From contig NZ_JAPDPD010000025.1 in assembly GCF_026283965.1 (NCBI RefSeq), positions 1 through 64,000 of the forward strand: DNA of 64,000 nt, given 5' to 3'. The stretch is from Dyella subtropica (GTDB lineage: Bacteria; Pseudomonadota; Gammaproteobacteria; Xanthomonadales; Rhodanobacteraceae). Under the pieces are notes generated by a model. It saw only the letters and a program-made list of their open reading frames with translations. It had not been told where the DNA came from and made no database searches. The position numbers and the translations under genes are program-made. This document shows positions 1 to 29,272 of this stretch, piece by piece (the first letter of the stretch is position 1; each line of letters begins with the position of its first letter).

Positions 1-19
1 CGTCCTCCTGCCGGAGGCC

Positions 20-310
20 GGGTCACTTCTCTTTGTTTGGTCACGCCTGAGCAGGAGCGATGGCGAACAGCGCAGCTGGCCCGAAGGGCGGAGGGCATGG
101 ATGCCCGGAGTCAAGAGAAGTAACCAAAAGAGAGGCCACCCCGGTTACGCGCCCTCCGGCTTCGCCTGCGGGTTCGTGAGGGCTGGCCGGGCCTGCTCTT
201 AGATGACATGGGGACACGACGTCCCTGTCGTGTCGAAAAGGCATCGACGTCCTGTCGATGCCCCCTTCGGGGCCTGATCGTCCATCCCTCACCGCTGCAC
301 AGGGGCCCCT
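20..310. repeat. Dispersed hairpin-rich repeat, copy A
   Basis: This stretch shares a long near-identical segment with 28490-28700 (gagaggccac through the Pro/Gly-like GC block to the accgctgcacagggg end). It contains a stem CTTCTCTT/AAGAGAAG (26-33 with 113-120) whose loop holds about 80 extra bases, a stem GACACGAC/GTCGTGTC (213-220 with 227-234), a stem GCATCGAC/GTCGATGC (241-248 with 254-261) and a short CCCCTTCGGGG hairpin. No protein in any frame looks real. The rest of 1-443 shows no gene. It could be a structured RNA, a palindromic mobile element, or both. Confidence 0.8.
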
Positions 311-28302: not shown

Positions 28303-28316
28303 GCGCCGCGTTGACT

Positions 28317-28410
28317 CCCTCTCCCCGCCGGGGAGAGGGTTGGGGTGAGGGGTGGGTGCTCGCGATAACCTCTCACTGTCGTCATTCCGGCGAAGGCCGG
28401 AATCCAGTGC
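28317..28410. repeat. Two dispersed palindromes after selO
   Basis: CCCTCTCCCC/GGGGAGAGGG (28317-28339) and ATTCCGGC/GCCGGAAT (about 28384-28403) are perfect hairpins separated by a GGGTGCTCGCGA segment. Degenerate relatives of the same string occur at 53840-53910. They may also end selO transcription. The rest of 28303-28795 is the second copy of the large dispersed repeat. Confidence 0.65.
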
Positions 28411-28489
28411 CTGAGCGCTTCGACTATCGCGTTATTGCAACCTGGCTCGCCTGCCGCGGGCTTTCGAACCGCTGCCGCGGTCCGAGTCA

Positions 28490-28700
28490 CTTTTCTCTGT
28501 TTGGCCAGAGAAAAGTAACCAAAAGAGAGGCCACCCCGGTTACGCGCCCTCCGGCTTCGCCTGCGGGTCCGTGAGGTCTGGCCGGGCTTTTCGACACGAC
28601 GTCCCTGTCGTGTCGAAAAGGCGCAGGCATCCCTGCCTGCGCCCCCTTCGGGGCCTGATCGTCCAGCCCTCACCGCTGCACAGGGGACCCCTTAAGATCA
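28490..28700. repeat. Dispersed hairpin-rich repeat, copy B
   Basis: Second copy of the element at 20-310, compact form. Stems: CTTTTCTCTG/CAGAGAAAAG (28490-28499 with 28506-28515, six-base loop), GACACGAC/GTCGTGTC (28593-28600 with 28607-28614), GCGCAGGC/GCCTGCGC (28621-28628 with 28635-28642) and CCCCTTCGGGG. The first and third stems have other sequences than in copy A yet pair perfectly. It ends about 100 bp before the next gene. Confidence 0.85.
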
Positions 28701-28795
28701 GGAGCAACATCAAGAGCGGAGCGGCGGGCGTTGCCCGCGCGCTAGCGCTCGGCGTGGCGTCGGGATCAATACATGCGCAGAGCAACGAGCACGGT

Positions 28796-29272
28796 ATGAC
28801 TCATCAATACGACAAGGCGGATCAGGTTTCCGTGTCGATGCGCGCGCTGCAGGTTGCCGGCATCTGCTGGACCCTTCCCAATACTTTGCTGGGTTTGATT
28901 GCGGGCCTGGCATGCATGTTGTTCGGCGCGCGCCCGCAATGGCGTCGTCGCGATTTGGCTCTGGCATTTCGGCGGGTGCCGTGGCGTGGTGCGGGTGGGG
29001 CGGTGACGCTGGGCAATGTGATTTTGTATACGGGCGGCGAGCTGGATACGCCGTGTTTGACCTATGCGCATCGCACTGGCCAGTGTGTTGAGCTGCCGGT
29101 TTCACTGGCCGACCATGAGCGTGCGCATGTCTATCAGTACATGGTGCTGGGGCCGTTGTTTCTACCGGTGTACGCATTGTGCGGTGGCGTGAGTGTGCGC
29201 AATCCGTTTGAGCGTGCGGCCGATCGTTACGCGCGGCTAGGTTCGGGGTGGTGGCCGTCTCAGAGCGGGTAA
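28796..29272 (+). CDS. Small membrane protein with HExxH motif
   Basis: 158 residues, family not recognised. One clear membrane helix near the start (WTLPNTLLGLIAGLACMLFG), a Tyr-Thr-Gly-Gly loop region and then DHERAHVYQYMVLGPLFLPVY: an HExxH zinc-metalloprotease-like motif running into a second hydrophobic segment. The motif may be catalytic or chance. Start uncertain: ATG 28796 lacks a strong ribosome site and an in-frame ATG at 28838 is an alternative. Overlaps the end of the beta-barrel gene tail to tail by 13 bp. Confidence 0.6.
   Translation: MTHQYDKADQVSVSMRALQVAGICWTLPNTLLGLIAGLACMLFGARPQWRRRDLALAFRRVPWRGAGGAVTLGNVILYTGGELDTPCLTYAHRTGQCVELPVSLADHERAHVYQYMVLGPLFLPVYALCGGVSVRNPFERAADRYARLGSGWWPSQSG

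Follow-up and report, generated by a model that had tools for sequence, protein, structure and literature searches.

A dispersed, non-coding hairpin repeat of Dyella subtropica with a candidate pseudoknot-locked triplex module

Introduction

Two sites in a 64,000-nucleotide stretch of the Dyella subtropica genome (NZ_JAPDPD010000025.1, positions 1 to 64,000; hereafter the window) carry copies of one element in which two hairpins differ in sequence and nevertheless stay paired. A preliminary description read this covariation as selection on a folded RNA or DNA, and not on protein, and suggested either an undescribed structured RNA or a hairpin-based mobile element. The question raised by the locus is what keeps such hairpins paired, and whether the element belongs among the structured RNAs or among the dispersed DNA repeats.

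High-copy palindromes that lie outside genes and have a mosaic structure are known as REP, BIME and REPIN repeats, and REP and BIME repeats have been reported to be bound by an architectural protein or by gyrase. A GTAG or CGTC tag next to the palindrome is a mark of REP and REPIN repeats that depend on a RAYT transposase. In Escherichia coli, the triplex repeat TM_ECO is intergenic, lacks a strand bias, forms five inverted pairs, each of unlike types, and shows no connection to known mobile elements (PMC4666352; Holder 2015). Another point of comparison is the RNA family TwoAYGGAY (RF01731), for which binding to CsrA has been proposed (PMC4333381). The analysis reported here describes a real, structured, high-copy intergenic repeat that is partly known and one module of which, M5, appears to be new.

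The two copies in the window

Read directly, copy A occupies window positions 1–292, where the beginning of the contig truncates it, and copy B extends over about 28317–28690. The element had been placed at 20–310 and 28490–28700; both sites were correct, but its size was not, as copy B is longer and copy A is cut. The contig begins within copy A, at window position 1, and the assembly break there was probably caused by the repeat. The long identical segments shared by the two copies were borne out, and so were both hairpin swaps: GCATCGAC/GTCGATGC (241–261) in copy A corresponds to GCGCAGGC/GCCTGCGC (28621–28642) in copy B, with four changes per arm, and CTTCTCTT/AAGAGAAG (26–33 and 113–120) corresponds to CTTTTCTCTG/CAGAGAAAAG (28490–28515). 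The first loop of copy A, previously credited with about 80 extra bases, holds an insert of 69; its arms stand 95 bases apart as against 26 in a copy with the same 5′ arm (L070), and the insert recurs in four of the 51 copies collected from the genome. The next hairpin also has a longer form in copy A.

Copy B opens with M1 (28317–28352, plus strand), of which 28317–28351 matches the strict TM_ECO intrastrand-triplex pattern. The modules that follow carry no strand assignment: M2 (28384–28403) is a hairpin with arms ATTCCGGC/GCCGGAAT, replaced by other types in other copies; M3 (28445–28461) is a short, imperfect hairpin; and M4 (28464–28485) is a hairpin with a TGCC loop and a single mismatch. 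The M2 hairpin and its variants, here and in other copies, bear what we take to be a resemblance to the Neisseria dRS3 repeat. M5 (28490–28533) consists of a Y arm (28491–28498), a lock (28502–28506), the strand R1 (28507–28514), GTAACC (28515–28520), the mirror strand R2 (28521–28528) and the lock partner (28529–28533), and it is this module that covaries in three ways across genera. After M6 (28547–28567), a hairpin with internal mismatches, an outer stem spanning 28571–28673 (28571–28581 with 28663–28673, one mismatch) encloses M7 (28587–28620; loop GTCCCT, or AGGGAC on the minus strand), M8 (28620–28643; the hairpin GCGCAGGC/GCCTGCGC, loop ATCCCT, or AGGGAT on the minus strand) and M9 (28644–28653), a small hairpin with a TTCG loop. 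An automatic search for such long-range stems is noisy, since 90 of 169 shuffled elements also yield one. The shared sequence closes at 28679–28690 on the plus strand.

In copy A, again without strand assignment, a truncated M4 of another type (1–21) precedes M5 (26–138), which comprises a Y arm (26–35), the 69-base loop insert, R1 (113–120), R2 (126–133) and the lock partner (134–138). This M5 is a chimera: its R2 type differs from that of its arms, so that the third strand is mismatched. The 3′ part (176–292) repeats the arrangement of copy B, with the outer stem at 176–186 and 282–292, M7 at 213–234, M8 of the GCATCGAC type at 241–261 and M9 at 262–272. Copy B folds with a z-score of −6.5 on the minus strand and −5.7 on the plus strand, none of 200 shuffles being as good on either; for copy A the value is −2.3 on the minus strand, with none of 100 shuffles as good.

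A mosaic repeat family in the genome

A pattern for the core of the element was found at 49 places in the Dyella subtropica genome (30 forward and 19 reverse; backward control 0), and a DNA search of the same genome returned at least 43 matches. Collapsing the fetched loci left at least 51 distinct copies, a lower bound because the DNA search scored 40 of 105 candidates. The order of the modules, M1 to M9, is fixed, and the arms of individual hairpins fall into types: 21, 14, 12, 3 and 1 of the 51 copies for M8; 35, 8, 6 and 2 for M7; and 31, 17, 1 and 1 for M4, with one copy unread. Both forms of each hairpin that differs in the window are common types in this genome. Complete quartets of type combinations occur for five of six module pairs, the exception being M4 with M5. 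Such free combination implies that hairpins are exchanged between copies as blocks, and hence that copies A and B display a swap of types rather than four separate compensations. The comparison of two copies cannot serve as proof of selection on the fold, as the preliminary description had it, since common types were swapped as blocks; the case for selection comes from the wider comparison below.

Blockwise change of arms and reassortment of types are also what would be seen if the fold had no function and template switching and gene conversion between copies kept the arms paired. Over a broader set of 169 elements, perfect hairpins number 2.2 per element, compared with 0.38 after letter shuffling, and six-base arms of 19 different sequences are found around the loop TCCA. 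Constant loops with variable arms of this kind speak against a fold without function, and M7 and M8 are the modules for which template switching or gene conversion may be a partial explanation.

The earlier statement that selection does not act on protein holds: the core of the element is free of predicted genes in all 51 copies. A coding origin was rejected on this ground and because the three-way match in M5 is at the level of letters. Beyond the 3′ end, the sequence is not common to the copies. At three loci (L004, L005 and L020), tandem repeats such as (AAAGGC)n, (AAAAGCCAAGAGC)n and (AACAGCTGAAGAGC)n come right after the shared 3′ end.

Three-way covariation in M5

The plus-strand order of M5 is Y, loop, R1, GTAACC, R2. 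Y and R1 pair, R2 is the mirror image of R1, and the loop is locked by pairing between the five bases that precede R1 and the five that follow R2. The pattern used to search for it fixed GTAACC, one C and the Y and R classes and left the choice between A and G free. Matches were found in 29 of 59 genomes and 14 of 26 genera of the family, in 17 of 369 genomes and 16 of 272 genera of the class, and in 7 of 299 genomes and 7 of 154 genera of the phylum, these last all within the same class; at every level the count for the backward control was 0. Genera with listed M5 stretches include Dyella, Xanthomonas, Stenotrophomonas, Lysobacter, Luteimonas and Pseudoxanthomonas, as well as Burkholderia, Silvimonas, Halopseudomonas, Aggregatibacter and Actinobacillus.

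The family and class matches listed gave 72 genus-by-sequence rows (59 distinct sequences, 22 genera). In these rows, Y pairs with R1 at 99.3% of letters, R2 agrees with the mirror of R1 at 99.5%, compared with 59.9% when read directly, and the lock pairs at 91%, G-T counted as pairs. Collapsed by genus, mirror agreement is 0.990 against 0.765 (sd 0.027) in shuffles and lock pairing 0.878 against 0.703 (sd 0.018), with none of 20,000 shuffles as high in either case, although the shuffles leave relatedness in place and independent events are fewer than rows. In an alignment of 40 of the 59 distinct sequences, both sides vary in 12 of 13 pairs, and the cells that pair make up 96.7%, a share that drops to 47–63% when the sequences are slid by one to three columns. 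Four of five covariation measures exceeded all 500 shuffles; the fifth, the number of further pair types, did not (487 of 500 as high). Alignment across related genomes followed by a covariation test, the check proposed in the preliminary description, thus finds M5 covarying beyond shuffles, and selection on a fold is upheld by this wide comparison.

Further searches gave a similar picture. With four A/G positions free, a collection of genomes from 84,980 species held at least 118 stretches; among the matches in the stretches listed, 126 of 129 fell within the 4 mirrored of 16 combinations, against 77.6 expected under independence, and 104 of the 107 distinct ones did so. With R2 wholly free, 25 places were found in which 188 of 200 letters are mirrored and 130 of 200 agree directly; these represent a variant with a shorter downstream part, and 12 of the 25 rows are off the mirror by one letter. 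The phylum search supplied nine further rows, of which six mirror perfectly and three do not fit in this register: one (from G010) mirrors at 6 of 8 letters, and two (from G641) at 5 and 4 of 8, with direct agreement at 7 and 8. By eye, the latter two fit the mirror if the register shifts by one base.

Ordinary copying errors do not produce a mirror strand. The joint variation of three strands from genus to genus therefore counts as direct comparative evidence, and it points to M5 as a pseudoknot with a triple helix that is under selection. What template switching and gene conversion copy is inverted or direct sequence; they make no mirror strand, nor would such copying make a loop lock with bases more than 20 positions away. 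These processes hardly explain M5, and we consider it improbable that they account for the fold as a whole.

M5 shares with TM_ECO and the related PIT class an intergenic location, the absence of strand bias, close inverted pairs of unlike members and a pyrimidine–purine–purine order (PMC4666352). It differs in being A/T-rich, in its covarying loop lock and in lying within a 300-base chain of hairpins; M5 is not TM_ECO. The main text of that paper contains neither 'covari' nor 'pseudoknot', and it describes TM_ECO as commoner upstream of genes, whereas the present element avoids divergent spacers (PMC4666352). The strict TM_ECO pattern itself occurs in 15 of the 47 copies in this genome with enough upstream sequence, and in 22 of 47 if one substitution is allowed. 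The literature searched, in which most subscription papers are not included, yielded no description of either M5 or the element as a whole.

The 3′ half and its likeness to TwoAYGGAY

Perfect hairpins number 373 in the 169 elements, and 272 of them carry TCC in the loop or within two bases of it, which on the minus strand is GGA. The 111 distinct TCC hairpins read ANGGA on that strand in 60 cases and AYGGAY in 28. M7 stems in other genera (for example, L075, L079 and L141) carry a conserved A-A or A-G mismatch, which is missing from the common M7 type of the Dyella subtropica genome. Two adjacent GGA-loop hairpins within an outer stem, on the minus strand, are a likeness to TwoAYGGAY (PMC2864571 and PMC4333381), from which the present element differs in being a high-copy repeat joined to M5. 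RF01731 finds 28 minus-strand places in this genome at E ≤ 0.001, 8 of them above 43 bits, and 24 of the 28 coincide with copies of the element. Both window copies lie below the gathering cut-off: copy B matches weakly at 28584–28647 on the minus strand (37.3 bits, cut-off 43), and copy A is absent from the 28. No Rfam RNA exceeds its cut-off at the window sites, the only passing match being a tRNA elsewhere; weak matches below cut-off to miRNAs, sX12 and others were taken as chance. The idea of an undescribed structured RNA therefore survives in part: the 3′ half resembles TwoAYGGAY on the minus strand and M1 fits TM_ECO, and for M5 no description was found.

These features make a structured minus-strand RNA the main rival to a repeat that acts as a single strand. 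According to this proposal, the GGA-loop hairpins bind CsrA/RsmA, the pseudoknot-triplex caps or protects the RNA, and tens of copies form a scattered sponge. RF01731 matches on the minus strand, mostly at copies of the element, the frequency of ANGGA loops, the CsrA binding proposed for TwoAYGGAY, the single CsrA match in the genome and the better folding of copy B on the minus strand all agree with it. The passing of the RF01731 cut-off by L087, among 18 other sources, and by L110, among 20 loci from relatives, also fits; that only one of these 20 loci passes counts against an RNA, as do the lack of a promoter or terminator at copy B in a search for the sigma-70 type and the unshared sequence past the 3′ end, which leaves no common promoter there. 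Given also the position data below, we regard this explanation as possible but doubtful. In Burkholderia seminalis (L205), another candidate sRNA, Bp1_684 (RF02421), is found at 958–1070 and 1724–1836, beside both M5 modules of a convergent pair, which suggests that it belongs to the same kind of repeat; it has no match in the window.

Which strand folds

M5 on the plus strand has the class II order of pyrimidine arm, purine arm and mirror purine strand, and the minus strand reads lock, pyrimidine third strand, pyrimidine arm, purine arm. An H-type pseudoknot with a pyrimidine third strand is the arrangement of known RNA triple helices, and the minus-strand letters of M5 would give such a fold. 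The intrastrand triplex classes, including the class II purine motif, are those defined in PMC4666352. Mismatches offer a further hint: on the plus strand A-C exceeds G-T by 11 to 3 in the M5 stem and lock, by 28 to 7 in the noisy long-range stem search and by 37 to 5 over hairpins (recurring sites included), and A-C there is G-T on the minus strand. This lean weakly suggests the minus strand as the one that may fold. A lower stem, GGTYAC/GTAACC, is also possible in M5 and would be in competition with the triplex; these two folds may thus alternate.

Genomic position, pairs and mobility

For the 46 of 51 copies in the Dyella subtropica genome with both neighbors known, the flanking genes are convergent in 21 cases, sense in 12, antisense in 11 and divergent in 2. 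For 46 single elements in other genomes, the counts are 14, 15, 15 and 2, based on loci of at least 3 kb and at least 58% G+C with a predicted gene on either side. The genes were predicted with a simple finder for which the window was the training sequence, and 20 paired elements (9 antisense, 7 sense, 4 convergent) were set apart. The combined 92 elements comprise 35 convergent, 27 sense, 26 antisense and 4 divergent. With 27 sense against 26 antisense, an element of sense-strand 3′-UTRs is unsupported; the lack of strand preference relative to neighboring genes speaks against the minus-strand RNA, and position argues against a plain cis-acting RNA.

Neighboring gene pairs at the other-genome loci, the only source of the background, are tandem in 258 cases, convergent in 53 and divergent in 52. 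The excess of convergent positions (35 of 92 against 53 of 363) would also follow if the repeat, with gyrase or an architectural protein bound to it, served its host between convergent genes, for instance by buffering topology or as a bidirectional insulator. However, avoidance of promoters alone yields the same pattern, the repeat is missing from many relatives, and the evidence is one of pattern; we give this role only a slim chance.

In several genomes, elements occur as convergent pairs about 380–700 bases apart. The members of 42 such pairs have a stem type in common in 7 cases, against 16.7 expected from random pairing within genomes, and both stem and lock in 2, against 12.2; these pairs come from the family matches listed, and duplication of composites makes them partly dependent, so that the chance estimate overstates their independence.

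Comparison at the selO locus, next to copy B, shows that in the nearest relative (G001) the element is shorter and its M5 of a different type, that another genome (G004) has the neighboring gene only a few bases on, and that three others (G002, G003 and G005) have different neighbors. These differences between species indicate that elements come and go. A gene that looks thioredoxin-like by eye adjoins selO in G001 and G004 and was not seen at 28303–29260 in the window. The relatives compared offered no clean empty site at selO and only short matches to the flank of copy A, and neither a target duplication nor a clean insertion point was found. The Y1 transposase domain (PF01797) has no match in the Dyella subtropica genome, as against 5 of 14 control genomes that were positive, and mobilization by a Y1/RAYT enzyme was rejected on this ground. 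A phage or plasmid origin was likewise rejected, as the core had no match there and the lone stretch in viral contigs that fits the M5 pattern has no Y arm. The proposal of a hairpin-based mobile element is consequently possible in view of the differences at selO, and is not helped by the lack of a Y1 transposase, a target duplication or a clean insertion point.

Interpretation and significance

The reading that we favor, with a confidence just short of even, is a non-autonomous repeat, dispersed and non-coding, in which the folded single strand is kept by selection or moved as such. It draws on the three-way covariation of M5 and the constant TCC loops with many arms, the many copies per genome and patchy spread, the absence of strand preference beside tandem genes, the unlike halves of pairs, the locus differences between species and the lean of plus-strand mismatches to A-C. 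Hairpin order, loops and pairing are kept and the letters of the arms are free. The minus strand would be the one that folds, and an enzyme may spread or maintain the repeat in this folded, single-stranded form, after the fashion of REP-like DNA repeats, with copies surviving mostly where they would do least harm, behind genes. The unlike halves of close convergent pairs would let each half fold on itself and avoid a long perfect palindrome. Counted against this reading are the Y1 transposase, target duplication and clean empty site that were sought and not found, the three of nine further M5 rows off the mirror, the chimeric copy A and the competing lower stem. Like REP, BIME and REPIN repeats, the element is high-copy, extragenic and mosaic; it differs in being much longer, in its putative triplex module and in the Y1 transposase not found.

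A more far-reaching formulation would make M5 a widespread, selected and so far unnamed pseudoknot-locked intramolecular triplex that is kept by three-way covariation over many gammaproteobacterial genera and reaches tens of copies in certain genomes. It would also put M5 at the center of a new class of folded repeats, with two unlike halves, that move or organize chromosomes as a single strand. We offer it tentatively, as an idea with less than an even chance by a clear distance. Motif counts alone cannot settle the long-standing question of selection for intramolecular triple helices in living genomes, and the covariation of M5 supplies natural variants with which to test it. The element also unites two items that have been described separately, one a triplex repeat and the other an RNA family with proposed CsrA binding, and this union makes it questionable to read TwoAYGGAY, in these genomes, as a plain sRNA.
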